A stretch of 64,000 nucleotides of DNA, taken from NCBI RefSeq assembly GCF_019320115.1, contig NC_089597.1, positions 121,940,951-122,004,950 on the forward strand. The letters are read 5' to 3'. The DNA comes from Miscanthus floridulus. Lineage: Eukaryota; Streptophyta; Magnoliopsida; Poales; Poaceae. The position numbers and the translations under genes were made by a program. How positions within the stretch are numbered: the stretch's first letter is position 1; each line of letters starts with the position of its first letter. The notes beneath the pieces were generated by a model. It was not told the DNA's origin, did not search any database, and worked only from the letters and a program-made list of their open reading frames with translations. This document shows positions 1-58,077 of this stretch, in pieces.

Positions 1-44
1 CTTAACCTTGTTCTCATGTGAGTAATAAAACAAATTTGCTACAG

Positions 45-1100
45 ATGGCACGCACAAAGCAGACTGCTCGCAAGTCCACCAGAGGCAGAGCTCCTCGCCA
101 TCATCTTGCTCCACGTACCCGTTAGCGCCACACGTTTCTTGGAGAGTTTGGGATGCCTACACTCTTATGGAGAGTGCTCAACTATGTAGGCTATCCTGAT
201 GGAATGGAGCCTCGCTACTTCTGGACAAATGAGTAGTTGGGGGAAGGTCTCTTGGTTACTGTGGAGGTCATTGTACGTCCCTAAGGTGACAGTTCTGAGT
301 GGACTAGTTGGCGTTATGAGTCAACTGGTAGGACTACTGAAGAAGCAGCTGACAGGGCAGCCTTTGGTATACTGAGGGATATCATGGATTGTTTTCCTCC
401 GGAGTTGGTAGCTGCTTTAGTTGGAGTCTTTTCGAGAGGCAACCCCTCCACTGACTCATGGTAGCAAGCAAGAGGAAGATCTCTGGAGATTGGTGCAGCA
501 GAAGGACAGAATAGTGATAACCCTACCATGAGCGCCATGTTCGCAGTGATGAAGGCTTTCAATGGAGTAGAAGGTAGCCTGAGACGTGTGTCTGGTGCTC
601 TTGGTCATGCCTGAGATGACCGACGTCAACTTCAGAGGGATCACGACACCGAGATTGAGAGGCTCAGTGCAGAGATGGCTCAGTTGACTCATCAGAGGGA
701 TCAGGTGACCTAGAGGACTGGAGCCTATGAGGGAGACATGCATGCACTGAGAGAGCAGGTCGAGCATTTGACCACTACCAACAGGAATGCTGAGTGCATG
801 TTGATCCATGTGCTCCACTAGAGGAATGAAGCCTGGTCCACAGAAGATGTTCTGAGAGCTCAATAGGTTGAGCTAGAGCAGCAGCTGGCCAATGCAGAAG
901 AGTACAACGACAACCTACATGAGGAGGTTCATCAGCTAAATAACCAGCTCCACCCTTACATTTCGCCTGGAGCCATAGAGATGGATCTAGATGAGGACGA
1001 GGATCCCGAAGAGCTTGAGGCACCAGCTAATAATGACAACGATGATGTAGATAGTGACGATGTCGACATCTCCAACCTAGACAGCGACCACGATGAGTAG
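45..1100 (+). pseudogene. Extra ORF upstream of gag with histone H3-like N-terminal tail (decayed)
   Basis: One frame runs from ATG 45 to TAG 1098-1100 (351 codons) and is broken only by stops at 123, 234, 282, 462, 612, 711, 819 and 864; no frameshift is needed. The N-terminus reads MARTKQTARKSTRGRAPR. Residues 2-12 are identical to the start of histone H3 (K4, R8, K9, S10 and T11 all present), and the next residues keep the H3 spacing GxAPRxxLA. The rest is not a histone fold. Residues about 35-125 (GMPTLLWRVLNYVGYP to AAFGILRDI) could be a dsRBD-like alpha-beta-alpha unit, which is only my inference. Residues about 200-305 are a charged, coiled-coil-like stretch, and the C-terminus is very acidic (DLDEDEDPEE and later DNDDVDSDD). 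The ATG directly follows CTACAG, a good splice acceptor, so translation may depend on splicing. Every stop is one transition from a sense codon. Function is unknown. Confidence 0.8.
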
Positions 1101-1470
1101 GCTAGTAGTTATTGCACTAGCTACTAGGGTTTCGTTTACGACGACCTTTTGCATGGTCGACATGTCTGGCATGTACTCATGAGTAGAAAGACTAAGACCT
1201 TGATGTAATGTTGGAAAACTTGGATGTGTTTGTGGTGATATCTGAACGTCAAAAGTCCAGTGTATGTATGCTGCCAATTTGGTTGTATTGGACGCGACGT
1301 GTGCATTTCAGTAATCTAATTAGTAATGTTGTGTTGATTGGAATGACTTATTGTGCCCCTATTTTATTGTATGAAGTTATTCTCTCCAGTGAAGTCAGAA
1401 TGGCATAATTTTTTATTCGCCTGCAATTTCTACAACATCGTCTAATAATTACTATTGCTGAAATATGCAG
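1101..1470 (+). other. Spacer between the H3-tail ORF and gag
   Basis: No coding frame continues here. The stretch ends in AATATGCAG directly before the gag ATG at 1471, again resembling a 3' splice site. Both ORFs of the element thus begin immediately after an acceptor-like CAG. Confidence 0.5.
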
Positions 1471-4400
1471 ATGCTGAACACTCATCGTAACATGTATGAC
1501 ATGACTGAGGAAGGTGGCAGTGCCACTGGGAATGAGAACCGTGATCCACCACCACCACCTCCTCCTCCACCGTACACCGCGGAATAGTTCTTCGCACAGT
1601 TCCTTGGAAGTCAGTGCAACATGGAGGGCATGCAGCAGAACATGGAAGCTGCATTGTGCCATATTGCCAACAACACCCGCCGTGGGTTAAACCCAGGTGG
1701 ACATGAAGCAAATCAGCATAGTAGTTTCAAGGACTTTATGGACACTAGACCACCAATTTTCAAGGAAGCGGTAGAGCCCTTGGATGCAGAAGAGTGGATA
1801 AACACCATGGAAGATAAGTTTTGCGTTCTAAGGATGATAGAAGTATTGAAGACAGAGTATGCAACTCATCAGCTGCAAGGCCCTGCAAGAATGTGGTGGA
1901 AGCACCACCACACCACTTTTCCTCCCAATGCCCACATTACTTGGAGGGAATTCACTAAGGCCTTTCGTGGAGTTTACATTCCCCCTGGTTTGACCGAAAT
2001 GAAGTTTGGAGAATTTCTAGCACTGAACCAAGGCACCAAGACGGTGACCCAGTATCTACATGCATTCAATATTCTAAGTCGCTATGCCTCTGACATGGTG
2101 AATACCGATGCCAAAAAGATCGCTAGTTTCAAGAGAGGTCTGAATCCCAAAATGATGAAGCACGTGGGTACCAACACGAGAACTGGCATCAATGATTTTG
2201 TTAGTGACTGCTTAAAGCAAGAAGAGAACAACAATGTATATGCTACATCTAAGACTCGCAAGAAGGCTTTTGAGTCAGGTTCGTCCCAGCCAAGGGCTCC
2301 GATGGCAAATCATTCGGCGTATCGTCTGCCTGCCCCTAGTGCAAGGTTTAGGCCACCCCAACGGAGGAATCAGAATGCCCAGCAACCTCAAAGGAATCAG
2401 AAGCCATTCAAGATGGCAGTGCCATAAGCCAAGACCGGACAAGGCAGTTCATCTGGAGCTGCTACTCAAGTGAGAGGACCGTATTTCAACTACAATCAAA
2501 CTAGGCACTTTGCGAAGTTTTGCCCATATCCCAAGAGGCAGCAGAATCAGTACCAAGCTCATGTGCACCACACCACCATTGATGACATCTCGAAAGGAGA
2601 GCTTGTGACAGCCGATATGTTTTCTATCAACAATCATCCTACAGTTGTTTTGTTTGATTCTGGATCATCGCATTCATTCATAAGTCAAGCATTTGCAAGA
2701 AAGTATGAGCAAAAGATAGTTGAATTGGAATGTGCTTATCGGATCAGTTCAGCTGGGGCTGATCTATTAACTAATCAGATAATTCGGGGGATAACCCTAT
2801 GTATAGCAAACAGGCAGTATATGCTTAACTTGATAGTTATGCCAGGACTAGTTCTGGATGTGATTATAGGAATGAACTGGATGACTAAGATGGGAGTAGT
2901 AATTGATGTGGGAGGAAGAAGCATTTCTCTCAAAGAACCTGTTGGAGAAGGTACATTTCAAGTAACCTTACCTCAGAGAATAGATCTGACCAGTACAACT
3001 TGTGTAGTCCAAACTACTCTTCTAGCTAAGATTCCAGTAGTATGCGAGTTTCCGGATGTGTTTCCAGATGAGTTACCCGGTCTTCCACCGGACAGAGATG
3101 TTGAGTTTGCCATTGAGTTAATCCCTGGAACACCACCGATCTCAAGAAGGCCTTATCGAATGCCTCCAAATGAATTAGTCGAGTTGAAGAAACAACTCCA
3201 AGATTTGTTGACTAAGGGTTTGATTCACCCAAGTTCATCGGAATGGGGATGTCCTGCACTGTTTGTGAAGAAGAAGGATAACTCCTTATGGATGTGCGTG
3301 GACTACCGACCACTGAATGCGGTGACAATTAAAAACAAGTATCCTCTACCTCGGATTGATATCTTGTTTGATCAATTGTCCAAAGCCAAGGTGTTCTCCA
3401 AAATAGATTTGAGATCAGGGTACCATCAGATTAAGATTAGACCACAAGATATACCCAAAACCGCATTCTCCACCAGATATGGTTTGTACGAGTATCTTGT
3501 CATGTCCTTTGGTTTGACAAATGCTCCTGCATACTTTATGTATCTAATGAATTTGGTCTTTATGCCAGAGTTGGATAAGTTCATGATTGTGTTCATTGAT
3601 GACATTCTAGTGTACTCAGAGAACGAACAGGATCATGAAGAGCATCTAAGAATTGTCTTGACTAGACTCAGAGATCACCAGCTGTATGCTAAGTTTAGTA
3701 AATGTGAGTTCTGGATGAAGATAGTTCCTTTTCTCGGTCATGTGCTATCTGAGAATGGAATCTCAGTGGATCTTAGTAAGGTACAAGAGGTTATGGACTG
3801 GAAGGCACCAAGCACAGTTCATGAGGTTCGGAGTTTTCTTGGATTAGCCTATTACTATCGTCGTTTTATACCGGACTTCATGAAGATTGCCAAGCCAATG
3901 ACAAGTTTGCTACAAAAGGGTCATAAGTTCGTTTGGATAGAGGAGTGTGAGGCAGCTTTCTACACCTTGCGGAATTTGCTAACCACTGCTCCTGTTCTAG
4001 CGCAACCGGATATAGAGAAGCCGTTTGATGTGTTTTGCGATGCATCAAAGAATGGTTTAGAATGTGTTCTGATGCAAGATGGAAGGGTCATTGCTTATGC
4101 CTCACGTCAGTTGAGGAAGCATGAGGTTAACTATCCTACACACGATTTAGAGCTTACGGCTGTTGTGCATGCTCTAAAAATTTGGAGACACTACTTGCTT
4201 GGGAATGTGTGCAATATCTTTACAGATCATAAGAGTCTCAAGTACATATTTACTCATTCTGAGTTGAATATGTGACAAAGAAGATGGTTAGAGCTAATAA
4301 AGGATTATAACCTGAATGTGCACTATCATCCGAGAAAGGCAAATGTAGTGGCAGATGCCTTAAGTAGGAAGTCACATTCTCTTGTTGTGCAACCATTGTT

Positions 4401-5928
4401 TGAAGATGGGTTCAATTTGTTACATCCTGCAGTGTTGCATAATATCTAGGTTAGTTGTACCTTGGAAAGCAAGATCATTGAGGGTCAGAAAACAGATAAG
4501 GGAATACTCCATATCAAGGAGACAATAAAGAAAGAACCGTCCAAGCACTTTAGAGTGGATGAACAAGGAGTGTTATGGTTTAAGGACCGTTTGGTTGTAC
4601 CTAAAGATCGAGAGCTCAAGCACAAATTGATGGATGAAGCTCATCACTCTAAGCAATCTATCCATCCTGGAAGTAACAAAATGTACCAAGAATTGAGACC
4701 TCGTTATTGGTGGACAAAGATGAAGACGGAGATTGCAGCGTATGTTGCTTGTTGCGACATGTGTTGTAGAGTGAAAGCTCTTCATATGAGACCCGCAGGA
4801 ATGTTGCAACCTTTGTCAGTACCAGATTGGAAATGGGATGATATAAGTATGGATTTCATCACCGGTTTCCCCACCACACAAAAGGGGAATGATTCGATTT
4901 GGGTAATTGTAGATCGCCTTACCAAATCAGCTCACTTTTTACCAGTCAAAACAACATTTCAACCACCTTAGTATGCTGAGAAGTACATTGCAGAGATTGT
5001 CCAATTATATGGTATACCAAAGACTATCGTGTCTGACCGTGGGTCATAGTTTACCGCTCATTTTTTGGAGCATCTTCATAAGGGTTTGGGTACTAGCTTG
5101 ATTCATAGTACAGCTTACCACCCACAAATAGATGGGCAGACAGAGCGAGTTAATGCTATTCTAGAAGATATGCTTAGAGCATGTGTGTTATCATCTAAAG
5201 GTTCATGGGAATCATGGTTACCTTTGGCAGAGTTCGCTTACAACAACAGTTACCAAGAGAGTATCAAGATGGCTCCATTTGAAGCATTGTATGGTAGAAA
5301 ATGTAGGACACCATTGAATTGGGTTGAGCCTGGAGAAAGAAGGTTTTACGGGATCGATTTTGTTGACGAGGCTGAGAAAAAGGTCCATATTATCCAACAA
5401 AACATGAAAGTGGCACAGTCACGCCAAAAGAGTTATGTCGATAAGAGAAGGAGACCGCTTGAGTTTGAGGTAGGTGACTACGTTTATCTGAAGGTTACTC
5501 CAATGAAGAAAGTACAACGGTTTGGAGTAAAGAGAAAACTTGCTCCTGGATTTGTAGGACCATACAAGATCATAGAGAAGAAGGGTCCCGTGGCTTATAA
5601 GTTACAATTACCAGAAGCGATGGTTTCGATCTTCCCAGTCTTCCATGTATCATAGTTGAAGAAGTGCTTGCGTGTTCCAGAAGAGAGAATAGAACCTCAG
5701 AGCATTCAGCTCAAGTCAGACTTGGAATACCGTGAGCAACCGGTTTGGGTTTTGGACACTAAGGATCGAGTCACTCGGAACAAAGTGGTGAGAACGTATA
5801 AGATATAGTGAAGTCATCACGATGATGGTGATGCGACGTGGGAAACAGGAGAATATCTGCAAAACGCTTATAAGGATTTTTATAACAAATGGTTTGTAAC
5901 TCAAAATCTCGGGACGAGATTCTTATAA
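1471..5928 (+). pseudogene. gypsy gag-pol polyprotein with chromodomain (nine stops, no frameshift)
   Basis: A single frame of 1,486 codons from ATG 1471 to TAA 5926 is interrupted by stops at 1585, 2425, 4273, 4447, 4969, 5047, 5653, 5806 and 5809. In order: a polyproline N-terminus; the Retrotrans_gag core (about 1890-2110); a degenerate zinc knuckle (2473-2533) whose first two cysteines are now tyrosine and whose glycine is arginine; protease DSG (about 2656); RT with FIDD (3592-3603); RNase H (about 4024-4375, one conserved glycine now glutamate); integrase with an HHCC region (about 4640-4780) and the D, D, E residues in MDFITGFP, VSDRGS and DGQTERVN; and a C-terminal chromodomain (about 5725-5890). 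Each stop can be reached by C-to-T or G-to-A from CAG, CAA, CGA or TGG. It cannot now make a full polyprotein. Confidence 0.92.
5725..5890 (+). other. Chromodomain at the integrase C-terminus
   Basis: After the integrase GPY-type region the frame reads EYREQPVWVLDTKDRV, then VVRTYKIQW, an acidic HDDGDATWE strand and a final helix EYLQNAYKDFYNKW. This is the three-strand plus helix pattern of the chromodomain that defines chromoviruses and guides integration through histone marks. The double stop TAG-TGA at 5806-5811 cuts it between the IQ and W of the core strand. The aromatic positions Y (first strand) and W (WETGEY) are still recognisable. Confidence 0.75.
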
Positions 5929-5939
5929 GTGGGGAGGGA
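5929..5939 (+). promoter_or_regulatory. Polypurine tract of the gypsy element
   Basis: GTGGGGAGGGA lies one base after the pol stop and directly before the LTR start. This is the expected plus-strand DNA priming site. Confidence 0.75.
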
Positions 5940-8900
5940 TATAACACCTCGGTGTTAAGCATGCATTAAAATTCCATCCCATGAGCATAATCATCATCAC
6001 CTCATGCATAAGCATCATTCATGCATTTCATTTTGAAAGAAATGAAGTATCATTTCATGTGGTGCTTAAATTGATTGAAATTCATTATGTTTAAAATAAT
6101 GTAAAATGCCATGCTCATGTTTGGATGCCATGATTACTTGTTTTGATCACTAAATTAACTTAGAAATATTTAGGATGCAATTTGGAGCAAAGTTTATATT
6201 CAAAGTTTTGCCAAATTATGCTTTTAAAATAATTCTAAAAAATTAGGGTTTTGGGATTTAATATACTTTAAATCTATAGTTTAAAATCTATTTGGAATTT
6301 GACTTTGGTCATAAAAGCAAAGCTATAGAGAATAAATTTTTGAGCAACTTTTATTTTTGGGCCAAAGTTTGAAACTGCTTTGAAATTGCTCAAAATTTGC
6401 ATTGAATGAAATAGGAATAGAAAATAATTTGAAACATGTTTTTTCTTCCTTAGTGGGCCTCACGCCTCGCTTCCCGACCTAGTCTGCAAGCCGGCCCGGC
6501 CTACCTCCACGCCGCGCTCCTGCTCCCACGCGCCGCGCCCGACCGGCGCCAGAGCGCGCACGCCGCGTGGCAGCCATGTGCCGGCGAGTTCGCCGCGCGG
6601 CACCGCCGGCCTGGCATGCGCCCCTCCTGTCGTGCCTACACACGCCGCGCCGCGTCTGCCACCCCCTCCTCTATCTCATTTGCTTCCTCTCTTCCGCCAG
6701 CGCAAGCAGCAGCAGCGCACGCACCCGCCACCGCCCGCACAAGCACCATCGCCGGCGTTGGCCGTTCCGGTCACTCCCGTTCTCTAGGGCTAGCTCCGTC
6801 TTGCCCTGAGCACCGCCTCCACCTCGCGCACCTCGTGCTCGTGTCGCTTTGCCATGGTAAGCTCCCCTTTCTCAGGAATCGCTCGCCGGAGCACGGCCGA
6901 GCTCACCGGAGAGCTCTGCTCCCATGGACTCCCCCTCTCTGCTCCACCTCTCTCCTTCCTTTCGCGCGCGTGAGCACCGCCTTGCCCTCGCAAATCTCGT
7001 GTGTGCCTCCCCGTGGCCTGCCGTGGCCGAAGTCGGCGTACCGCCGACGAGCCGCGCCACCGCTTCGCCATGCGCATCGTCGAGCTCACTTCCAAGCTCC
7101 TCTAGTGCCTTCTCTTGGTGCACCGCGTTCGCCTCGTCGCGGGTGAGCTGCTGGTGGTGACCGCACTGCCGGCTAGCTCACCGTCGACGAGAGCCGGCCA
7201 GTCAGCTCCGCCCCTATTTCGGTCTGACCGATAGGTGGGGGCCGTTGACCCGTGGGGGCCCACTCGTCAGCGCCCCAACTCGGGTCTGGGTGCACAGCAC
7301 CGGGTGCACCCAGCGTTTTCATCGGCTGGTTTTTAAAAGGATTTAGGAAATGATTTTCCAGAAAATGTTAAATGTTTCCAAAAAGTCATAACTTGCTCAA
7401 AATAGCTCCAAATTTGTTGAAACAAATTTTGCTAGGTTTCTTATGACTAGATCTATCTGTTAAAAATATTGCATGTCAAATTTGTGATACTTTTCTGTGT
7501 AGCTTTATTTAAATTGAATAAATGCTGATTTCTTGGAAAATGTATAGTAAATAGAATATAGGTCAGAAAAATATGGTGCTAATTTTGTTGATCTATTTAG
7601 GTTATGTACTTTTTGTTAAAAATATATAACATACATGTTATGTGGAAAGATTTGGCTAGGTAGGTTATGTGTATTAATTGCTGACTTCTTGTAAAATTGC
7701 TAGGGCTAAAAATATGAATAATACATGTAGGTGAAACTTTTTGTACAGTGATTGTATGCTATGAAGATCATGGGAAAAATACGAAATCTGTTGTTTGACA
7801 CTTTTCGTAGTACAAAGTATTTTCATGCTCAATTATCCACTATAGCTTGTCATTTTTGTGTAGGCTGTTATACTCATCTAAATGCCATGAAAATTTTATG
7901 GTAGCCTACTTAGAGTAGTACTATGCTACTGTAATTTTCTCAGATTTTTATGAGCACCAAAGATATATGTTGCTATTGTAGCCCTAATTTAAAATGAAAT
8001 AAACAAATCTTCTTTAATGCATGATTAGTTAATAATGTTTGCTTTGGTGTATCTTTGAAGCATCTTAGATTGCCGTGGTGACTTGGCATGTTATTACAGT
8101 GGTTGTAGTAGTAGTATAGTGGTACATGTTCTTGGATAATGTTGGCTACCTTATAGCAGGACTTTACTTCTACTATGCCCAATAAAGTTAAACATGTTTA
8201 TCTACATTTCATGTATCATGATCATTACATGTCATCTCTTCGATGCACCTATGCATTAGCACTCATATATCTGCATCATACAGGATCGTAGGAGGAGTTG
8301 CTAGCAGTAATTTAGGAAGAGCAGACCGAGACAGATCCACAAGAAGTCCAGACACAGGAGGTGCTAGAGGAAGAGGAGCCAGGAGAGGACTTGCCCGAGT
8401 GTGTGGATCATCAACCTAGTTCGTTCGAACGAGGCAAGCCCCGGAGCATTCTAAGTCTCCTACTTTATAAAAGCAATTCTTTCTATATATATGAGTTTAT
8501 ATATTGTTGCATTAAGTAGTAGGAGTTGATTGAAACCGTTGATGCATTTATTACTATCCTTGCCTACCTTAGTACCTTGTTACCCTGTTAGGTCTGGATC
8601 GAATAACTGCTTAGCCTTGCTTAGACCGGTAGCGATCGGTGATAATCCGATCACCTACATTATAGGTGGTTACTGGAAGAATTTAGCTATGGAAAGAATG
8701 ATATCCTGGAATTAACCATGTGTGATGAATAATTGGAGACCGGACGGAAAAAGTTGGAGGCAACCAGACAGGGTTCTAGGGTGCTGTTAGTTTCCGTCTG
8801 TGCCAATTAAGGACCGATCGTTGCTCATCCCTCTTGTCATATTGAACGCATGCCTCACATTTAGCTGACCGAATAAAGTACCTTTCGATCGCGAAGCTAG

Positions 8901-9940
8901 TGACACTATTCGAGCCGGGATAAACCCGGATTGGCAGACTGGTGCTGAAGGGGGTATGACGGGGACGCGAAGAGTGAGCCCAAGGTGCGTCCTGGTAGTC
9001 GGGCGGTCCGTGGGTAGTGTGGTCCCGGTTGTTATCCCGCGGCTACTTGAAAATTGTCATTGGTGATCTAAGCGACCCTGACGGGGGAAGCGTGGTTTGT
9101 GTGAGGAATAAATCACCAGCTGGTTAGGAATCGATTCGAATCGCCATCGCTCCTAGATAGTGAGCACTTGACTCGAGCTATGGCATCGTAGTAATTATTA
9201 TGGAACAATGATGGTTATCTGGATGATATGGGATATGCTAAATCTAAATTGGTAACTGGATGTTATTGATTAATCAAGTGATTGCTATAGTATAGGTGCT
9301 TACCTAGATTGATAGGTCATAATAAAGATGATGTAAAGTACTTAAAATAGTTTCTTCATGATAGCTTATGCTTTTCGCAAACAAGTCAGCCAGCCCATTA
9401 AAGAAAGCCTTACATAAACCTGGGTGTCGCTTTATTTTGGTTTGAGACGGGTAAGTCTAGCTGAGTACCTTCTCGTACTCAGGGCATTGTTCCCATTGTT
9501 GTTGCAGATGGTCAAATGTATTACGGCTATTGCATTAACTGCATGTACCCGGCGATGGGTGACAACTAGGACTAAGGGCAATGGTCACTCCGTATCTCTC
9601 CTCTGATACTTTTGTTGGAAATGACTACCTACTTGCACTGTATTGGAACTAAAAGTATGTGTGTAACTTAAAAACTATTTGCTTCTGCTATTTCAGATTG
9701 AATCTGGTTTGTAATAACTTTATATTCTAAACTCTAATGTATCCTACTGTCATTGTGAACTTTATGTAACATGTGACGGTACTTGCTAAACTTGTACGAT
9801 CTTGGTTTGTATGTCGATTGGTTTGAAATCCTTCGTGGTTTCACGGACTACCGGGTTATATGGGCTTAAGTTTGCTAAATTATCTGCTTCGACGGAAGAT
9901 TTCCTTACTTAATCTCGTATAATTGGTCGGTTCTGTTACA
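5940..9940 (+). repeat. 3' LTR of the gypsy element (about 4.0 kb)
   Basis: The LTR begins TATAACACCTCGG after the polypurine tract and ends GGTTCTGTTACA at 9940. The expected terminal TG has become TA, again a G-to-A change. Internally it has an AT-rich first part, a GC-rich block (about 6450-7320) with chance ORFs on both strands, then a long AT-rich part. The start is clearly related to the minus-strand LTR fragment ending at 54768. The length is typical for grass Tekay elements. The right target duplication would be GCACT (9941-9945), but the left one is out of view. Confidence 0.75.
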
Positions 9941-21317: not shown

Positions 21318-22499
21318 GTGAGCCGAGGTTACAAAGATCCTTCTATCCTATCTGCACGCCGATGCCTCCCCTTTGGCCCTTTGGGTCATTGGTTTCAGTT
21401 AACCCCGATTTCTCGCAAGATTTAGCGATTCCTTCTGTTCTGAACTTCTGGTCACATCAATCTCCAAAGGCAAACAAGCCTCATTCTTGATTTGCCTTTA
21501 ACTTCTCCCATTTTTCTGGTTGGTAGCGCTAGCGCTATGCATATCAAGCATGTGTTGCGGCGAAGTTTATGCCCTTGCATTCCGTACACCGATTGGAATT
21601 AGCAATTGCAGTGAAGTTTGAACCTTCGAAGTTCGAAGATCTTCCTTTGTTTTGCTGAGCCTTTTTGTGCTTGTTTCTGATATTTGACCTGGAGTCCGGT
21701 CTAGTTTCTTAGGGCTGTTCACCAGCTGCATGCCAGGTTTCCTCGACTTGACTTCTGAAGCTGTGAGTGCAGCACCTGAGCAGAGTATGGGCGTGTACAG
21801 CATGCCTCACTGACGGACAGCACAGCATGTACTCACCTCATAAAATGGATTAATTTTCTGGAATGCTCATGGAACCTCGAATCTAGTCTTTTGCAAACCA
21901 CAGTATTTTATTTTCCTTTCTTTCCGTTTTATTTGCGAAAAGAAACAAAACATTTGGTTACTTGGTTAGTAAGTGAGAATTCAACTGCAGCGAAAACATC
22001 AGGAAACTCGTGAATAGTATTTAGAGGTTTCTTCTTTCAGAGAATTGTTTTCTGGATTTTTAGAGTTCTTCCTCCTTTCCTTTTTCTCTCATTGAGCAGC
22101 CGTGTGGAAACTTTACTGTATTTTTCCTGGCCATGTGGCTGTTTGCTCAATTATGCCAAAAATAAATCACCTGTTTGGTTGCCTAGGTGTTTTCATCTAA
22201 ATACTGTACGAATGATCATCTGTTAGTCAAACAGAGGTCAGAACTACTGCTTATCTGAACAATAAGTTACTAAAACATGGAATTAGATCTATATGGGCTA
22301 AGCAAGCTTCTTCTTGTATGTGTATTTATGTGGCATTTGGTATTCACATTCCAAACAATAGGATTTCTTATGTACTTATCTTGTTTTCTATAACAGAGGA
22401 GCTAATGAAATTTGCAGCATTGCAGTGTTCTAATAACTATCGACATCGATTGTCATGTGCAGGCAGGTGATTATCGAGTCCAGAAACCATTTGCAAGCA

Positions 22500-24967
22500 A
22501 TGAACTCTCAGAGTGTTCTTGCGATGGAGCAAATCGCCACTCCCGACAAAACAGGACATGCCTCTGCACCTTCAGTTCATAAGCTGTTCGATGCTAAATT
22601 AGATCACCACAGCTTGATGGATGACACATTGGCATCCACGAGTCAGTCATCAAACATCAAGACTGAGTTGATCCGGTCATCAAGCTTGTCAAGGAGCCTA
22701 TCAGTTAACCTTCAGAAAAGAAGCCCTGAATCTGATCCTGATAGCCCGCAGTCTCATGTCTCACATCCTAAATTTTCAGAACCCATGTTCTCAAATTCTT
22801 CGACATTCTGCACAAGCTTGTTTTCGTCATCTTCGACAAAAACAGAGCCATGCCGTCAAATGGGCACTTTACCTTTCCTGCCTCACCCCCCTAAGTGTGA
22901 GCAGCATGTTTCAGCTGGGCAGTCATCAAGCTCCTCTCTGCTCTTAAGTGGTGATACTGGCAATGGTTTAGATGAAGCTGAACAGTCAGATGATCTGAAA
23001 GACTTCCTCGATCTTTCTGGAGAAGCTTCTGATGGCAGCTTCCGAGAAAACAATGCCTTGGCTTTTGATGAACAGATGGAATTTCAGTTCCTGTCTGAGC
23101 AGCTAGGAATTGCCATCACTGACAATGAGAAGAGTCCTCATTTAGATGTAAGTTAATCCGAGCCCCTTACAGAAACACTGCTCCACTATAATTTGACGGT
23201 AACAGTTTGGGCTTTGCAGCACACCAGATCCTCTGTTCCAGTTTATAGATGTTTTATGGTGATATTCCTCTGACACAGTTGTTTTTAGGACATATATGGC
23301 ACACCACCACAGCTGTCATCACTTCCAGTATCATCTTGCTCCACTCAGAGTATACAGAATCTAGGATCACCAGTTAAGGTCCAGCTTAGCTCATCTCAGT
23401 CATCTTCTAGCTCTGCAACAACTAACAAGTCAAGGTTGAGGTGGACACTTGAGCTTCATGAGCGTTTTTTGGAGGCCGTAAAAAAGCTTGAAGGACCTGA
23501 AAGTAAGTTGGCCATTTTGCTTTATCTCTCACATGTTTTCAGGATTGTCTATATTTGACAGACCATCCTTAATAAATAGTTTGCTTTCATATCTTTACAG
23601 AAGCAACTCCTAAGGGTGTGCTGAAACTAATGAAGGTAGAAGGTCTAACCATTTATCATGTGAAGAGCCATCTGCAGGTACAAGTGTACAATTGTTTCCA
23701 GTGAAAATTAATTCTCCCTTCTATGTTCTCATTATAACTTACATTTTCTCTCCTATACTCTTCATATAGAAGTATCGGCTTGCGAAATATCTTCCTGGGC
23801 CTAAAGAAGGTAAGCTTAAATTACCTATTTACTGTCTCCTTTATAATAGCAGCCTTTTTCTGAAAAGAACGAAAATTCTAAATGCTTACTCTGTGTAGAT
23901 AAGAAGGCTTCTTCGGAGGATAAAAAAGCACAATCAGGAAAGAGCGGCAGTGATTCAAGCAAAAACAAGTGAGTCCTCTGATCACTTAAGTAGGGAAACA
24001 TGCACATAAGCAGCACGACCTTAGAGTTTTACATCCCTTTCCTTAACATGTTTCTTAGGAATTTACAAGTGGCAGAAGCTCTAAGGATGCAAATCGAGGT
24101 TCAGAAACAGCTTCATGAACAATTAGAGGTGGGTATCAGAACATCCAGAGTGCAGGCTATGTTATCACATCTCACAAGTTCTCACATGCTTGATAAATAA
24201 ATTTATCCGAAATCATTCAAGGAATTAGTATGGAGTTTGGTTTCAGTTCTATATGTCCACTTGCGTTCTGTTCATCCTATCCTTTAACTGGCCAACTTAT
24301 ATACAATCAATGAATACCTAAAAGAATTAATTGTATACTATAAATTTTGACCATAAAAATTAGAATTCAATAATCAGAATCGAATATATTGCAGGTACCA
24401 TGTACTTCTGGTTTAGGCACTGGATCCACTAAATTAGCATGCCAATTTTTAGCACTGTCTAGCAACCTTTACCTTTCAAATTCTTGCTAGAAGTTAGCAC
24501 CACCCTTTTGGCCTTTAGCATAGGCTTGTTTAGATCCACTCTTGCTAATTCTTAGTTGCTAACTATTCAGCAAGGTGGATCTAAACAGGGTCTAGTATCC
24601 ACACCCATTATCATGTGGTATCGGAAATAGTCAGGAAACATGTAGTAACAAACACTCAATTATCAAATATTTTCAGCACTGATGATTTGAATTTCACAAC
24701 CAGGTACAAAGGCAGTTGCAGCTACGGATAGAGGAACATGCAAGATACTTGCAGAAAATACTGGAAGAGCAACAGAAGGCCGGCAATGTGTCACTAAAAG
24801 TTCCAACTAAGCCACAAGCGACAGTGTCACCTGAATCGACATCAGATGAGAGAAGCGAATCTGAGGTAGGCACCATTTCTCCGCAGCCATCCAAGAACAA
24901 AAAACCCGTTTGTAGACACAGAATGCAAATCGCCGGCAAGGATCAAGAGGACAAAGGTTCAGGTTGA
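22500..24967 (+). CDS. MYB-CC (PHR1-like) transcription factor, seven coding exons
   Basis: Coding exons: 22500-23147, 23289-23502, 23601-23677, 23770-23809, 23899-23968, 24059-24128 and 24704-24967. All introns are GT-AG and phases agree; the product is 460 residues. I chose ATG 22500 ([11 protein letters not shown]) because the in-frame ATG at 22455 lies before the intron acceptor. The N-terminal 240 residues are Ser-rich and acidic. The GARP/MYB domain runs from [18 protein letters not shown] to [15 protein letters not shown]. The coiled-coil follows ([21 protein letters not shown], then [19 protein letters not shown]). Family members bind the P1BS element in phosphate-starvation genes as dimers and are held by SPX proteins with inositol pyrophosphate. 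The K, H and R of the KHR sensing motif are present in [12 protein letters not shown]. The C-terminus is basic. No break is seen; which PHR/PHL orthologue it is needs a tree. Confidence 0.93.
24525..24597. mobile_element. Short hairpin MITE in the last intron of the MYB-CC gene
   Basis: TTGTTTAGATCCAC and GTGGATCTAAACAGG form an inverted pair around a short AT-rich core that also pairs (TTGCTAA/TTAGTTGC). It lies inside the 575-bp intron between exons 24059-24128 and 24704-24967, away from splice sites. Confidence 0.6.
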
Positions 24968-28597: not shown

Positions 28598-29762
28598 GGG
28601 AAAATTGGTTCGGTAGCACTGAAAGAACTCCGTTTTCGTAAAATACCATCGAAAGATACCCGTCACTTAAAATACCACTGAAAGGATATCCCGTTAACTA
28701 GATGTAGCATTCCGTCACATTTGGAGATCACACCGTGATTGCTCCGTCCTCCTTTCATCCCATACTGAGCTCAGGACGACGCCGACGAGGCCGCGACGCT
28801 GGAGCTCGCCTCGGGCTTCCTCCCGCCCTCCTCCTCGTCCCGCGCCACGCTGGGCTCCTGCCGCTGCAGGTCCTTGCACACGACCACGCCCGATGGCGCG
28901 TGCGCCGTGTCCACGGCCGCGATGTTGTAGCACAGCCCGGGGTTGTCCCACGACGCGAACCGCCGGCCCATCCGCTGGTAGAACCCGGCCGAGAACTGCA
29001 GCGCCCCCGTCAGGTTGTTGCCGTTGAGGTACAGCGCGCCGATGCTGGGCAGCTGGGCGAGCTGGGGCGGCACGGCGCCTGTCAGGCGGTTGTGGTCCAG
29101 TGCCAGGAACCGGAGCCCCGTCAGCGCCGCCATGGACGCCGGTATGGCTCCCACGAGGCCGACGTTGGACAGGTCCAGAGTGGCCAGGTTCGCCGCCAGC
29201 GTCTCCCACCCGGACTGCGGCAGCGCGCCGCCCAGCTGCGGGTTGTTCGACAGCAGCAGGTCTTGCAGCGATGCCATGCCCTGCACGAACTGGGGCAGCC
29301 CACCGGTCAGGCTGTTGTTCCGGAGGTCCAGCAGTGTGAGGCTCTTCAGCCCCGCGAGCTCCGGCGGGATGCTGCCCTGCAACAGGTTGTTGCTCAGGTC
29401 CATCTTCAGGAGCCCCGTGAGGCCACCTAGCGACGAAGGCAGAGAGCCGGTTAGAGAGTTCTTGCTCAGGTCCACGATCAACAGCTTGTCGTAATTACCG
29501 AGTATCGCCGGTTAGCGCGGGACGGGGAGGAGGGCGGGAGGAAGCCCGAGGCGAGCTCCAGCATCGTGGCCTAGTCGGCGTCGTCCTAAGCTCAGTATGG
29601 GATGAAAGGAGGACGGAGCGATCACGATGTGATCTCCAAATATGACGGAATGCTAGATCTAGTTAACGGGATATCCTTTCAGTGGTATTTTAAGTGACGG
29701 ATATCTTTCGATGGTATTTTACAGAAACGGAGTTCTTTCAGTGCTAGAGAACCAATTTTCCC
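28598..29762. mobile_element. Pack-MULE carrying an LRR gene fragment
   Basis: The left arm (28598-28844) and right arm (29515-29762) are inverted repeats of about 247 bp, both starting GGGAAAATTGGTTC when read inward, with a few mismatches. A perfect 9-bp target duplication TATGTCAAA flanks the element (28589-28597 and 29763-29771). Long terminal inverted repeats plus a 9-bp duplication are the mark of Mutator-like elements. Instead of a transposase the interior carries part of a cellular LRR gene, which defines a Pack-MULE. The arms include gene-like sequence as well. Confidence 0.93.
28771..29481 (-). CDS. Captured LRR protein fragment, PII-2-like
   Basis: An uninterrupted 236-codon frame encodes five or six leucine-rich repeats of the plant type (LDLSKNSLTGSLPSSLGGLT, and LDLRNNSLTGGLP, LALDHNRLTGAVPPQLAQLP). 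A capping motif FASWDNPGLCYN follows, then a polar Glu/Ser-rich tail. The cap and tail resemble PIIN2/PII-2-like LRR proteins. No signal peptide is present: the N-terminus is missing and the ATG at 29481 falls inside a repeat (reading VDLSKN after MI). The last 25 codons lie in the left inverted repeat of the Pack-MULE, so the C-terminus is partly transposon-arm sequence. It may be transcribed, but whether a protein is made is unknown. Confidence 0.75.
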   Translation of the reverse strand: MIVDLSKNSLTGSLPSSLGGLTGLLKMDLSNNLLQGSIPPELAGLKSLTLLDLRNNSLTGGLPQFVQGMASLQDLLLSNNPQLGGALPQSGWETLAANLATLDLSNVGLVGAIPASMAALTGLRFLALDHNRLTGAVPPQLAQLPSIGALYLNGNNLTGALQFSAGFYQRMGRRFASWDNPGLCYNIAAVDTAHAPSGVVVCKDLQRQEPSVARDEEEGGRKPEASSSVAASSASS

Positions 29763-39236: not shown

Positions 39237-42221
39237 ATGGCAACCACAAAAGCAAATGCTAATGCTGTTTATTGGAATGCAAGTTCTTCTAGGCAGGGAG
39301 GCCAAACTTCAAGAGCTAGTGGTCCCCAAAATGTCTGCATAACTAATATGCAAGCAGAGCTATCATCATCGTCATCAGGCCATGGAACCAAATCATGCAG
39401 CCTCTCTGTGGACCACTCTTTGTCACATAAGCCTGAATCAGAACGCTCGATGGGAGCAACTGATAACCTGGATTCTCTTGTAGCAAATTCAATAGGCAGG
39501 CTTGTCTTTGAGGCTGGTCTTGAGCCTGATTTTGTTCACTTGCCGTCTTTTAATGGCGTGATTGATTTGCTCACCCGTGGGGTTTGGATTGCAATGCCTT
39601 CTTATGAATATATTCTGCAAGTGCAACTGAGTGAAGTTCAAAAGCGTGAAAAGGCTATGAGGCAACACTGGGAGAGAAGAGGCTGCAGTTTGATATTGGA
39701 TAGCTGGAAAAGCCGGTGTGGGAGAAGCTTCATTAGTGCTTTCGTGCATTGCAGAGAAGGGATGCTTTTTCTCAGGTCCATAGACATCTCCACAATATTT
39801 GATGATGTTGATGAGCTTGCAGCAATGGTTTGTTGTTTGATTGATGATATCGGTGTCCACAACATTGTTCAGGTCATCACCAATAATGTTTCACCACATA
39901 TGCAAGCTACAGAGCATGCTGTGCTAAAGAAACATGACCAGTCATTCATATTCACAGTATGTGCTGATCATTGCATCAATCTTCTGCTTGAGAATATAGC
40001 TGAACTGGATCACGTGAAAGATGTCCTAACGAAGGCAAGAGAAATCACGATGTTTTTGTATGGCCATGCATTACCCATGGAACTGATGAAAAAGTTCTTT
40101 TATTTTGACTCTGAGATCATAAGCAACTCTAACTTGAAATCGGTGGCTAAGTTTCTCACGCTTAAGACCCAAGTATCTCAGAGGGAAAATCTGATGAAGA
40201 TGTTTAGCTCGCCGAACTGGGTTTCCTCAGATCTGGCTTGTACAAGTCTGTCCATGCATATATGTGAGGTAGTACAAACGGATAGTGCATTTTGGAGTGC
40301 TGCTGATAATGTTTTGAAGGTTACAGGCCCACTTATCAGTGTTTTGTATAAATTGGAAAATGATAATTGTCCAGTGAGTGTCCTGTATGATGCCATGGAT
40401 AGTGCAAAAGAAGGTATAAAAAAAAATCTTGGTCATGAGCATGGTAATTACTGGCAGATGATTGATCACATATGGGACAATTATTTGCATTCCCCAATCC
40501 ATGCTGCTGGTTATGTTCTCAATCCAGGACTCTTTTACGCTGACCGGTACCGCCATGATTCTGAAATCAGCAGTGGCATCACGACCTGCATTATCTGAGT
40601 GGCTAGAAGTCATTATCATGCATTGCATGTAGCTGAACAAATGGATCTATATCAAAGAAGATCAGGTCTGTTTGATTCAGATTCAGCAATTCAGGAAGCT
40701 ACTGGAACACCTCAAGGTAAAGGCCAGTCCTGATTCACTGTGTGAACCCCTTTGATCTAAATATTTCAGGACATTTTAATTTGTACCTTTCTCCTGGTTT
40801 CCCACCTTCATAGCCTGTCTGTTATTTGATGTGATGCTCTTTTGTGTTGCTACTAAAGTGCCATTATTTCTGGTTTATCCAAACTTTAATTAAACATGTT
40901 AGATCTGGTTAGGATGCTTGAACTCCATACCAACTTAAATAGAGCAGGAGTACCATTCTCCAGTGTACAAATTGTTATGTACATGTGATATTGCCTAAGG
41001 CAGAAGTCCTGGTTCTTTCGCGCTAATGAATAATGTCATGTTCACACAACAATCTGTACAGCCACAGCTGCGCTCACCTCGCTGCCTGCCACAATTGCTC
41101 CTCTGTTCCTTTTGGCAAGTTAATGCCTTGTCATGATATATGTCCAAAGTTGCTTTCATTAAACATACCATGCATGCGTGTCTACTAATCCCAAGGTAGA
41201 CGCTAATGTTAATTAGTTAACAAAGGTTTGGGTTAAAGAAAGGCCCATGCTAATTTAAGTAAACAATAACTCAGGTTTAAATAATGCCGCGTCCACAGTC
41301 ATTAAAGCATGATGTTCAGACAAGGAGAAACAGCAGAAAAAAACTGTTTTGCTTGTCTGAAATCTCGTGTTTTATGACTGGAAGGCAGTAGACTAGTAGT
41401 TCTGCAATACCCTCCATTCCAAATTATAAGACGTTTTGGCTTTTCTATATTCATAGCTCTTGCTTCGCACCTACATATATGTTATGTCTAGATACATAGT
41501 AAAAGTTATGAATCTAAAAATGGCAAAACGTTTTATAATTTGGGACAGATGAAGTGCATTTGATATATGCTTCTATATGGTATGGTGCGAGGCCTTTGCT
41601 CCCATGATAATTTGTCTCCAGATGAAATACCGTATCTGATTTTTTTTTTGTTTCAAGTTCATGATTTGCATGTTGATACCCACTGTTGATATGCTTCGTA
41701 TTTGTTACCTTGTGTCCCTCCTTAGAAAATGACTAATGCATGTTGCCAACTAAGTTATCTTTCACCTTGCTTAAGTTACCACGTTCAACAGACGTTAGTC
41801 TGTGTGCTCTGTGTATTAAATGGTGTAGAATCAGGAATTTGTTTTGAACTGTTACAAAGAATAAAAAAAAGAATAGAATCCTACCCGTGTGATGATAATT
41901 CTGTTAAAGGAGTTGTCCTTACCTGTGTTTACCTGAAACAAATCGCAGATGTCTGGTGGGAGAGACATGGGAGTGGCACGAAGGAGCTACAATCTTTTGC
42001 TGCTCTGATCCTAGGCCAGACATGCTTCGGCGCTACTAGGTACAACCTCGACAAGAGCTTATCCGAGAGGCTGCACACTGAGAAGCGCTCCTTCGCCGAT
42101 CAAGAGGTTCCGCAACATGGAGTACATCTACTACAACCTTCGCCTCGTGAATGCAGTGCCTCGCCTGGAGGGTCCTCCTGCAGCCCGGCATGGTAAGGTC
42201 ACTGCCCAGCTGAGCGAGTGA
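39237..42221 (+). pseudogene. hAT transposase-derived gene (DUF659 and hAT dimerisation), disrupted
   Basis: Exon 39237-40716 starts MATTKANANAVYWNASSSRQ and contains a DUF659-like region (HWERRGCSLILDSWKSRCGR to VQVITNNVSPHM) and the following CADHCINLLLENI. A TGA at 40596-40598 sits where the family has arginine; the same frame then continues VARSHYHALHVAEQMDLYQR. A phase-matched intron (40717-41948) leads to VWWERHGSGTKELQSFAALI, the C-terminal hAT dimerisation motif, and to NMEYIYYNLRLVNAVPRLEG with a stop at 42219. A two-base loss near 42104-42107 shifts the frame just before this. No BED zinc finger precedes the core. A leader intron and single-gene layout suggest a domesticated transposase gene, now disabled, not a mobile copy. 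No terminal inverted repeats were found around it. Confidence 0.8.
41410..41555. mobile_element. Stowaway-like MITE in the intron of the hAT-derived gene
   Basis: CCCTCCATTCCAAATTATAA and ACGTTTT at the left pair with AAAACGTTTTATAATTTGGG and ACAGATGAAGT at the right. TA precedes the left end. About 145 bp, within the 1.2-kb intron. Confidence 0.75.
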
Positions 42222-46639: not shown

Positions 46640-49600
46640 TGAGAAATCCAATATGTTCAACTCATTCCTTAGCTTGCAAAACATTTTCTCATCCAATGGC
46701 TTGGTGAATATGTTGGCAAGTTAATCTTCGGTGCCTACACTCTCAATGCAAATATTCCCTTTTTTGTTGGTGATCTCTTATGAAATGTGGCGAATATAAA
46801 TGTGCTTTGTTCTTGCATGTTGAACCGGATTGGTTGTTAGCTTGATTGCACTCTCATTGTCACATAGCAATAGCACTTTCTTGAACTTGATTCCAAAGTC
46901 ACTCAAAGTGGCCTTCATCCAAAGTATTTGTGCACAACAACTACCGGCGGATATGTATTCGGCTTCGGTGGTTGATAATGCAATACTATTTTGCTTCTTT
47001 GATGACCATAAAACAAGTGATCTTCCTAATAATTAACATGTGCCCGAGGTGCTCTTCCTTTCAATCTTGCATCCCACATAATCCGAGTCGGAGTAACCAA
47101 CTAGCTCAAACTTTGCTCCTTTAGGATACCACAAACCAACATTTGGTGTATGCTTTAAGTACCTCAATATTCTCTTTGTAGCCTTCAAATGACTTTCTCT
47201 TGGCGAGCCTTGAAATCTTGCACACATGCATACACTAAACATGATATACGGTCTTAATGCGGTCACATAGAGTAGGCTTCCAATCATAGACCGATACAAC
47301 TTTTAATCCACCATGTTTCCACTTGCATCACTATCCAAGTTGCCATTGGTTCCCATTGGTGTGCTAATGACTTTGTTATCAATCATTCCAAACTTCTTGA
47401 TCATGTCCTTGATGTACTTGCCTTGACTCACAAATGTACCATTCTTCAATTGTTTGATTTGAAGACCAAGAAAGTAACTTAACTCTCCAATCATGGACAT
47501 CTCAAACTCATTAGCCATCATTTTTCTAAACTCATCACAAAAATCTTGATTAGTTGATCCAAATATGATGTCATCAATATATATTTGCAACACAAATAGA
47601 TCTTTTCCAATCTTCTTGATGAAAAGAGTGGTGTCAACCTTGCCCATTGTGAACCCTTTAGAGAGTAGGAAATCCCTCAATCTCTCATACCATGCTCTAG
47701 GTGCTTGCTTCAAACTATACAATGTTTTCTTCAACTTGTACACATGGTTGGGCTTCTTATCATCTTCAAAACTGGGAGGTTGCTCAACATATACTTCTTC
47801 ATTGATGTAGCCATTGAGAAATGCACTCTTAATATTCATCTGATAGAGCTTTATGTTGTGGGCACAAGCATAGGATAGCAAGATTCTAATTGCTTCCAAT
47901 CTAGCAACCGAGGCATATGTTTTTCTAAAGTCAAGACCTTCAACTTATGTATAGCCTTGTGCTACCAATCTTACTTTGTTCCTTACAACTATCCCATCTT
48001 GATCTTGCTTGTTTCTAAAGACCTATTTGGTTCCAATCACATTATATCCCTTTGGTCTTTCTACCAACTTCCATACTTGATTTCTTGTGAAGTTATTCAA
48101 TTCTTCATGCATAGCATTCACCCAATCAATATCCTTCAATGCTTTATCTATCTTCTTTGGTTCAATGGATGATACAAATGAGAAGTGTTCACAAAATAAT
48201 GCTAATCTTGATCTTGTTTGTACACCTTTAGAAATATCACAAATGATAGTGTCCAATTAATGATCCCTTATAATATTTGTAGGTTGAAGTATTGGAACTT
48301 GATTGCTTGCACTTGCTTAATCATTGGATTGAGATGATGTACTAGCCACTTGATCTTGTTCATTGGCATGAGATCCACTTGCACTAACTTGATTTGTATC
48401 ATCTTGCACATTTGAGTTAGAAAGCACTTGCACTTGATCATCTTCATCATCATTCACTTGCTTAGGCCTCAATTCACCAATATCCATGTTCTTCATGGAA
48501 TTTGAAAGTTGAATGCCTCTAACATCTTCCAAGTTCTTATTCTCTACTTGTGAACCCTTGGTTTCATCAAATTCAACATTATGAACTTCCTCAAGAGTAC
48601 CACTATCCAAATTCGAAACTCTATATGCTTTGCTTGTAGTGGAATAACCAAGTAGGAATCCTTTATCATATTTCTTGTCAAACTTGCCCAATCTTGTGCC
48701 TTTCTTCAAGATATAGCATTTGCAACCAAAGATCCAAAAATATGCAATGTTGGGCTTTCTACCATTCAAGAGCTCATATGGTGTCTTCTCTTTCAATCGG
48801 TGACAATAGAGGCGATTGCTACAATAGCAAGCCGTGTTGATAGCTTCGGCCCAAAAAAGATTTACTCACATTGTACTCACTAAGCATAGACCTTGCCATA
48901 TCAATGAGTGTTCTATTCTTCCTCTCAACAAGGCCATTTGATTGAGGTGTGTACTTAGCCAAGAATTGATGTCTAATTTCAAATTCATCATATAACTCAT
49001 CAATTCTAGTGTTCTTAAACTCACTACCATTGTCACTTCTAACTCTCTTGATGGTTGTTTCAAACTTATTATGAATGCCTTTGACAAATGATGTGAATGT
49101 TGCAAATACATCACTTTTGTCCACTAGAAAGAATACCCATATGTATTTAGTGTAGTCACCCACTATCACAAATTCATATTTATTTCCACCGATACTAGTG
49201 TATTGTGTTGGCCCAAACAAATCCATATGCAATAACTCAAATGCTTTACTAGTACTCATCATGCTTTTCTTAGGATGGGTGTTTCCAACTTGTTTGCCGG
49301 CTTGACAAGAGCTACAAAGTTTATCTTTCTCAAACACAACATCTTTCAAGCCTCTAACCAAGTCATGCTTAACCAATCTATTCAATTGTTTCATTCTAAC
49401 ATGATCAAGCCTTCTATGCCATAACCAACCCATACTAGACTTAATGAACAAGCATGTAGATAATCTAGCTTCACTAGTATTGAAATCAACCAAGTATAGG
49501 TTCTCATATCTAAAGCCTTTGAAGATCAAGTTAGAGCCATCTACACTTATGATCTCTATATTATCTACCCCAAATATGCATTTGAATCCAAGATCACACA

Positions 49601-51943
49601 ATTGAGCCACGGATAGCAAATTGAAGTTTAAGCTCTCTACTAGCAACACATTTGATATGCTCATGTCATTGGATATTATAATCTTACCAAGCCCTTTGAC
49701 CTTGCCTTTGTCATTGTCACCAAATGTGATACTATCATAACCATCATTGCCATTGGTGTTGATTGAGTTGAATATTCTTGCATCACCGGTCATGTGTTGA
49801 GTACACCCACTATCAAGAACCCAATGTCTTCCTTTGGTTTTGTAATTGACCTATAAAAGAAGATCAATTCCTTTTAGGTATCCAAACTTGTTTGGGTCCT
49901 TAAAGGTTAGTCACTAAGCTCTTTGGTACCCAAATGACTTTCTTCCTTGAGCCCATTCATGGTTTACCAATGAACTTAGCCTTTACACCATTTGTACCCT
50001 TAGTAAGCATATAGCATGAATCAAGCTTTATGAAGGATACATTAGCATTTGTGCTCTTGTTTTTGCATTCATACTCCTTATGACCCACTTGCTTGCAACT
50101 AGTGCAAAACCGACCATTGTTCTTCATAAAACTAGTCTTGTGAGAAGCAAAAGCTGCTTTGCCTTTCTTGGGGGTATAGCCCAATCCCTCTTTGTAGAGA
50201 GAGGCTCTTTGGCTACCTAAGCACATAAGCAAGCGGTCCTCACCACCATAAGCTTTAGCTAAGGTGTGAGTGAGCTTATTGACCTCCTTCTTAAGGTTCT
50301 CATTCTCAACCACTAGTGAGGTGTCACAAGTGAGACCATCACTACTAGATGATGTAGAAGTGGAGGTGTTACAAGAAGGGTTAGTAGGAGTAACAATGAT
50401 AGGTATAGATAGTGATTCATCAATTATATCATAAGTTAAACCTACATTGCAAGTTTCAACATGCTTCTTTTTATTTTGCTCATCAAGCAAAGATGAATGA
50501 GCCTTTGCAAGCTTTTTGTGAGCTTTGCCAAGCTTCTCATGGGTTTCCTCTAGCCTCTCATGAGATGAATTGAGCTCATCAAAGGCTTGCTTAAGATCCT
50601 TTAGTTCCTTATGCAAGCTTTTGCATTCCCTTCTCTTGATGTCAAAGTGTTCTCTAGCATGTCAAATAATTCATCTTTAGTAGGTTCATCAATATCACTA
50701 TCACTATCATTTTCATTTTCATGTTCATTTTTTCATCATCATGTTCTTTATCACTTTCATCATCACAAGATTGTACCTTAGTGGCCTTAGCCATGAAGCA
50801 TTATAAATATTCAAAGAGAGAAGGCTTCTCATTGATAGCAATGCTTGCAAGAACCTTCTTCTTGGTGGTCTTGTTATTATCACTATCATCATCATCATCA
50901 CTTGAGGAAGCATCACTATCCCAAGTGACTACATATGAACCACCCTTCTTCTTGAATGCCATCTTGTCCTTCTTCTCTTTCTTTTCCTTCTTTTCCTTCT
51001 TCTTGTTCTTTTTGTTGTCATCATCATTGTCGCTATTGTATGGGTATTGAGCAACAAGATGATCTTTGCTTCCACACTTGAAGCACCTTCTTGACTCTTC
51101 TTTGTTCTTGGATGAAGACTTCTTTCTTCTAGCACGATAGCCCTTCTTCACCATAAACTTGCCAAATCTCTTGACAAAGAGAGCCATCTTCTCATTATCA
51201 TCATCATCATCATCCCAAGATTCATCTTCTTCACTTGATGTTTCTTGCTTAGCTTTGCCCTTGGATGATGTGGCTTTGAATGCCATGCTCTTCTTCTTGT
51301 CATCCTTCTTGTCATTTTTCTTCTACTTCTTTTCTTCCTTCTCATCATCATCTCTATAAGTATCATCGGTCATTATATCTTCTAATACTTGGTTTGGTGT
51401 CATGGTGTCCAAACCGCTTCTTACTAAAATGGTGACCAATGTACCAAATCTTGAAGGTAAGCATCTCAAGAACTTATAGGAGAAGTCCTTATCCTTCACC
51501 TCTTCTCCAAGTGCTTTGAGATCATTGACAAGCACTTGAAGCCTATGGAACATCTTCGGCACACTCTCATCCTCCTTCATCTTGAAGCTTGCAAACTTCT
51601 CTTTGAGGATATATGCCTTAGCACCCTTTATGGCTTGAGTGCCCTCAAATGATTCTTCCAACTTCTTCCAAGCTTCATGTGCCATCTCAATATTCTAGAT
51701 TTGCTCAAATGTTCTTTCATCAATTGCATCATGAATAGCACTTAGAGCAATGCCATTGTTTTAGAGAAGCACTTCTTCGGCCGCGGTGGGATTCTCCGGA
51801 TCACCAATCTCAATTTTGGTTTCTACCACCTTCCACACCTTTCTATTGATTGACTTGATGTGTGTGATCATCTTTGACTTCCAATAAGGATAATTTATGC
51901 CATCAAATTGGGGTGGCTTCTTGGTGTTGTTGATTTGAGCCAT
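46640..51943 (-). pseudogene. copia gag-pol (multiple stops and frameshifts)
   Basis: Minus-strand reading starts at 51943 with MAQINNTKKPPQFDGINYPY (DUF4219/UBN2-type gag). It passes a first knuckle near 51085 (CFKCGSKDHLVAQYP, last Cys now Tyr), a Lys-rich and Asp/Ser-rich stretch, a coiled coil (about 50616-50490), and a second knuckle CTSCKQVGHKEYEC near 50110. Protease DSGCTQHMTGD is near 49800. Pre-integrase LWHRRLDHV precedes integrase with LHMDLFGP, RSDNGSEF and GLVERKNRT (49400-48880). RT carries YIDDIIFGS near 47580, and RNase H remnants reach about 46650. The frame changes between 50801 and 50616, 49957 and 49793, and 48819 and 48796, with additional in-frame stops. It cannot make a polyprotein. 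Confidence 0.88.
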
Positions 51944-57989: not shown

Positions 57990-58077
57990 ATTTGTATCTT
58001 TTGTGGTGGCGCGCATGTTGTATAAATAATTAATTATAATCTAGGTTTTAATATGATATTTATGTTATGTAATGCAG

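Follow-up and report, generated by a model that had tools for sequence, protein, structure and literature searches.

A histone H3-like N-terminus in the open reading frame upstream of gag of grass Ty3/gypsy retrotransposons

Near the start of a 64-kb stretch of the Miscanthus floridulus genome (contig NC_089597.1, positions 121,940,951 to 122,004,950; hereafter the window) lies a decayed Ty3/gypsy retrotransposon with an open reading frame (ORF), here called ORF0, upstream of gag. The predicted ORF0 protein opens with a close copy of the N-terminal tail of histone H3. We hold with high confidence that the frame is an ORF0 of this kind and that the tail is a feature of the whole family.

ORF0 and its element

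The ORF0 N-terminus reads MARTKQTARKSTRGRAPRHHLAPR. After the initiator Met, residues 1-11 are identical to H3 1-11 (11/11), and G13, A15, P16, R17, L20 and A21 follow in register with H3, so that the match overall is 18/24 with Met counted. Comparing the first 26 residues with the PDB gave 139 matches up to E 10, and histone H3 was the best match (E 8.5e-7; the best 60 of the 139 were viewed). Translation and the PDB match thus agree with the initial annotation, made from the DNA letters, which had read ATG followed by ARTKQTARKST, equal to H3 residues 1-11, and then GxAPRxxLA in H3 spacing. The frame runs from an ATG at 45 to a terminal stop at 1098-1100, and its features are as follows.

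45..1100, + strand: ORF0 of 351 codons and a terminal stop, interrupted by eight in-frame stops
45..116, + strand: H3-like N-terminal tail, Met plus 23 residues (sequence comparison with H3; PDB match)
153..410, + strand: region matching the predicted double-stranded RNA-binding domain (dsRBD) fold of relatives P0002 and P0010, residues 1-86 (gapless tblastn, models of relatives, fold comparisons)
522..950, + strand: region matching the long predicted helix or coiled coil, P0002 residues 124-266 (tblastn, models of relatives)
951..1097, + strand: acidic C-terminal tail (translation; charges counted on relatives)

The eight stops had been counted before and are borne out by translation. Freedom from insertions and deletions, claimed at the outset for the entire frame, holds for 153-1097, because an intact relative of 315 residues (P0001) aligns there by tblastn without a gap, at 77% over 315 columns. 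As a side observation, the stop codons within 45-1100 (+ strand), taken together, look like the C-to-T decay that a silenced, methylated copy would undergo. A tblastn search with nine relatives found no second ORF0 copy in the window.

The element is laid out in gypsy order, with ORF0, gag, protease, reverse transcriptase, RNase H and integrase all in the sense direction:

1465..2427, + strand: gag frame, with one in-frame stop in its first part and Retrotrans_gag in the open stretch 1621-2427
2470..4275, + strand: protease, reverse transcriptase and RNase H (domain matches)
4462-4971, + strand: integrase H2C2 zinc-binding piece (domain match; integrase pieces span 4462..5655)
5065-5655, + strand: integrase SH3_Tf2-1 C-terminal piece (domain match)
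5656..5910, end approximate, + strand: broken chromodomain-like region (by eye; no Pfam match)
5927..5939, + strand: polypurine tract (by eye)
5940..9940, + strand: 3' long terminal repeat (LTR), 4.0 kb, TATAAC...GTTACA (terminal motifs; end placed by motif)

With the 5' LTR beyond the window, the 4.0-kb length of the 3' LTR is a provisional value set by its terminal motifs. With gag to integrase downstream and intact relatives elsewhere, the view of ORF0 as a retrotransposon ORF preceding gag is supported. From the layout, the LTR length and ORF0 itself, we infer that the element belongs to the Tekay clade of grasses. It shares the sense ORF before gag and the gypsy order with the grass Tekay (Del) chromoviruses that carry a 5' extra ORF (Retrosat2, RIRE3, RIRE8, FRetro3, maize Tekay and sorghum Sb7). 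The part of PMC3485330 consulted describes the sense ORF0 upstream of gag-pol in Retrosat2 and its kin, gives LTRs of about 3 kb or more for gypsy elements with such an ORF, and reports none outside grasses.

The chromodomain-like region after the integrase raises the idea of a self-ligand, in which the integrase chromodomain of the element binds ORF0 that the host has methylated at K9. PMC3350952 states that no partner had been found for plant group II chromodomains, which leaves room for such an interaction. However, Pfam gives no match for the region, and according to PMC6317226 and PMC3350952 the aromatic cage for methyl-lysine is largely missing from group II domains. We consider this explanation very improbable.

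Distribution and conservation of the tail

Profile searches for ORF0 relatives returned 33 and then at least 891 proteins; in the larger search the 7998 best candidates were scored and 120 relatives listed. We fetched 130 relatives, setting P0034 aside as unrelated, and called a tail where at least six of 11 residues matched within the first 90, a threshold that misses tails decayed beyond it. An H3-like tail is visible in 28 of the 130. Among the 102 others, 100 start downstream of the tail position (89 when mapped on tail-bearing members and 11 more on P0010), P0016 starts within it, and P0018, itself from Miscanthus floridulus, is fused behind a piece of integrase. The 101 proteins that start beyond or within the tail are therefore silent on its presence, for or against, and no tail-less intact ORF0 was demonstrated among the fetched relatives. 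In P0031 and P0123, from two subfamilies, the tail continues in frame into the MPTL(LW) domain, and both proteins are rearranged further on.

Because other copies and divergent subfamilies bear the same tail, we reject a chance resemblance to H3. A fusion with a host H3 gene at this one locus, named beforehand as one outcome that would count against the initial annotation, is likewise excluded by the 28 tails spread over several subfamilies. A histone-fold identity for ORF0 was also ruled out: its relatives are modeled with a dsRBD fold and a single long helix, and none of the 13 Pfam matches for the window ORF0 is a histone model.

Searching with residues 1-40 alone scored nine candidates and returned two, P0031 and the unrelated fungal protein P0034; because short members lay on or beyond the length limits, it is a weak census. 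No DNA of relatives came from IMG/VR scans with P0002 and P0022, and a DNA pattern of the tail gave 0 matches. As a separate observation, P0034, a 331-residue protein of the fungus Rachicladosporium sp. CCFEE 5018, also starts MARTKQTARKSTRGRKPRQTLA, and its remainder has no Pfam match. It is apparently an independent H3-tailed protein whose remainder seems unrelated.

Conservation within the tail differs by position. The number of tails (n = 28) that keep the H3 residue is:

Positions 1-4: A1 28, R2 23, T3 26, K4 27
Positions 5-8: Q5 3, T6 27, A7 23, R8 23
Positions 9-12: K9 27, S10 26, T11 12, G12 26
Positions 16-21: P16 27, R17 19, L20 28, A21 27
Lysines lost: K14 0 (Arg in 21), K18 0 (His in 27), K23 0 (Arg in 25)

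For K14 the loss is less certain than for K18 and K23, since an insertion of one residue in six members puts a lysine next to position 14. To compare the tail with the rest of the protein we used nine hand-chosen representatives, the window copy and eight of the 28 tail-bearing relatives. Pooled identity over their 36 pairs is 0.74 in the tail versus 0.45 in the rest, and the tail is the better conserved part in 33 of the pairs. The H3 tail thus stands as a feature of the element family, kept better than its surroundings and near-invariant at K4 and K9. From this pattern, a contrast at the protein level, we judge it likely that the tail has been kept by selection.

These data bear on two other accounts. 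Plant retrotransposons are known to transduce host genes (PMC7264820, in the part consulted), and the tail might be a relic, the start of a captured H3 gene persisting with no role as a mimic while the coil and acidic tail alone matter. Such a relic should not outlast the remainder of the protein in divergent subfamilies, nor should the retention or loss of its lysines depend on position, and we regard it as quite improbable. Alternatively, the tail may be an H3-derived stretch for nuclear import or nucleic-acid binding, in which charge rather than histone likeness matters. Positive charge is kept as R23 in 25/28 and as R14 in 21/28, and the sections seen of PMC11728184 predict nuclear localization for the grass 5' ORF proteins analyzed there. 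Nevertheless, the non-basic A1, T3, T6 and S10 are near-invariant while K18 and K23 are not kept as lysine. We disfavor a plain nuclear signal because it would not select that residue pattern, and we judge this account unlikely.

Architecture of ORF0 proteins and other features of the window

Long-form ORF0 proteins are ordered as tail, dsRBD-fold domain, coiled coil and acidic tail. Several divergent subfamilies have a short form of tail, coil and acidic tail; because these lack the dsRBD-fold domain, the three shared parts form the common core. A tree built from the C-terminal 165 residues of 21 proteins sets the long form apart as one side of a branch with support 81/79, and a single gain or loss of the dsRBD-fold domain is possible on that basis. 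Models of P0002 and P0010 each contain an alpha-beta-beta-beta-alpha domain and a helix at 124-266. For these two models, Foldseek and VIA comparisons support the predicted dsRBD fold. Six members carry a net charge of -19 to -29 in their last 60 residues. The folded part, coiled coil and acidic tail proposed for the window copy are therefore borne out on its relatives. Pfam coiled-coil matches in the window ORF0 and in long members fell below cut-offs and were not used.

In a fold comparison with viral proteins there was no match below E 0.001, and several of the weak ones were DRBM or RNase III proteins. Close known counterparts of the ORF0 domain are the dsRNA-binding domains of plant DRB7.2 and DCL4, at 15-20% identity. 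A DRBM-like fold was reported in 2024 for the 5' ORF proteins of maize Tekay and sorghum Sb7 (PMC11728184), in keeping with the dsRBD fold predicted here.

The ORF0 and gag starts suggest how the two proteins might be expressed from one element:

42..47, + strand: CAG (42-44) directly before the ORF0 ATG, a possible 3' splice site
1468..1473, + strand: CAG before the gag-frame ATG at 1471, a possible alternative 3' splice site

In 1-6000 there are four CAGATG sites, where 1.5 would be expected. We offer, as a suggestion only, that ORF0 and gag could come from alternatively spliced LTR transcripts. The idea is weakened by a further in-frame gag-frame ATG at 1465 and by a pyrimidine content of only 36% and 48% upstream of the two CAGATG sites.

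Elsewhere in the window we noted the following features.

22455-23156, + strand: frame that looks, by eye, like the N-terminal portion of a PHR/MYB-CC regulator and matches nothing in Pfam
28771-29481, - strand: leucine-rich-repeat protein frame (LRR_8)
39237-40598, + strand: DUF659 protein, hAT-transposase-like
47303-51286, - strand: broken Ty1/copia element, with gag_pre-integrs and integrase core in 48819-49793
58072-61428, + strand: CACTA-like transposase pieces, with DUF4218 and DUF4216 in 59881-61428

A possible H3 decoy against silencing

Once Met is removed, the ORF0 protein would display ARTK..ARKS as H3 does. The coil would pair two or more copies, and the resulting multivalent tail could act as a soluble decoy for host enzymes or readers that depend on an H3 N-terminus bearing K4 and K9. 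Candidate targets are KYP/SUVH4, readers of methylated K9, and SHH1; KYP/SUVH4 is a K9 methyltransferase, and SHH1 reads K4 and K9 together and recruits RNA polymerase IV. By occupying such factors, ORF0 might leave the chromatin of the element less strongly silenced. The dsRBD-like domain of the long form may act on the small interfering RNA (siRNA) arm, pairing with DRB/DCL-type dsRBDs instead of binding RNA. We favor a decoy because retention of the N-terminal Ala, T3, K4, T6, K9 and S10, with Q5 free and K18 and K23 gone, fits contact with K4/K9 readers and writers. That ORF0 is a multivalent H3 decoy against host silencing is a serious possibility, held at somewhat less than even confidence.

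Several observations weigh against it. The window copy is dead, and 19 of the 28 tails come from one closely related group, with about six independent subfamilies in all. In three of the 36 pairs, all from one close group, the tail is the less conserved part. Mimicry is not strict in every copy: A7 is Pro in 5/28, and R2 and R8 vary in five each. As for the siRNA arm, no Pfam dsRNA-binding model was found at E up to 10 in P0001, P0002, P0012, P0016 or P0017, nor among the 25 of 27 rows viewed for P0010. The KKxAK motif, through which helix 2 usually contacts dsRNA, is missing in the eight of nine long members for which helix 2 was displayed; absence of these contact lysines sets the ORF0 relatives apart from DRB7.2 and DCL4.

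The tail could instead be a tether: by drawing chromatin readers or chaperones to the particle or to the integration complex, it would steer where new copies go instead of blocking silencing. The conservation data are compatible with this, and PMC11728184 proposes a possible role of 5' ORF proteins in insertion preference. In the window element, however, ORF0 and integrase are not fused, and we assign the tether a low probability.

A decoy of the proposed kind would have parallels. The C-terminus of influenza NS1 is a viral histone mimic, likewise a short H3-tail-like stretch on an unrelated protein. The ORF0 stretch differs from the viral mimics in that it occupies the actual N-terminus, where H3 has it, covers some 20 residues including K4 and K9, and is carried by a retrotransposon. 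VANDAL transposons encode an anti-silencing protein named VANC, and to our knowledge the VANDAL anti-silencing proteins have no H3 tail. They too are mobile-element proteins that counter silencing, as proposed for ORF0, but they belong to a DNA transposon. The part of PMC11728184 seen mentions them in Arabidopsis and suggests that the grass 5' ORF proteins modulate RNA silencing.

Whether the H3 likeness had been described before was left open at the outset, and the answer is divided. Steinbauerova et al. (Genetica 139:1543) reportedly noted in 2011 a partial similarity to histone H3 in part of the extra ORFs of Poaceae chromoviruses, so the likeness is not wholly undescribed and, with the DRBM-like fold, is already known in kind. 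The word "histone" occurs 0 times in the main text of PMC3485330 and of PMC11728184, as far as these were consulted. The residue-by-residue conservation of the tail, the short forms of tail, coil and acidic tail, and the reading as a mimic did not turn up in the open-access literature searched, judged by title or start of abstract.

More broadly, a large class of grass retrotransposons may encode a dedicated multimeric mimic of the H3 N-terminus that keeps K4 and K9 and has lost K18, K23 and mostly K14. With one lineage joined to a DRB/DCL-like dsRBD, this class would hit both silencing arms, H3K4/K9 reading and siRNA production. We put this wider proposal forward tentatively, as doubtful but possible. 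Grass genomes consist largely of retrotransposons, and it addresses how these elements outlast H3K9 and siRNA silencing. If true, it would account for the stronger conservation of a tail of some 23 residues in an ORF that otherwise evolves fast, and a genuine H3-tail mimic from an LTR retrotransposon would offer an answer that is direct and can be tested, as well as a natural reagent targeting H3K4/K9 readers.
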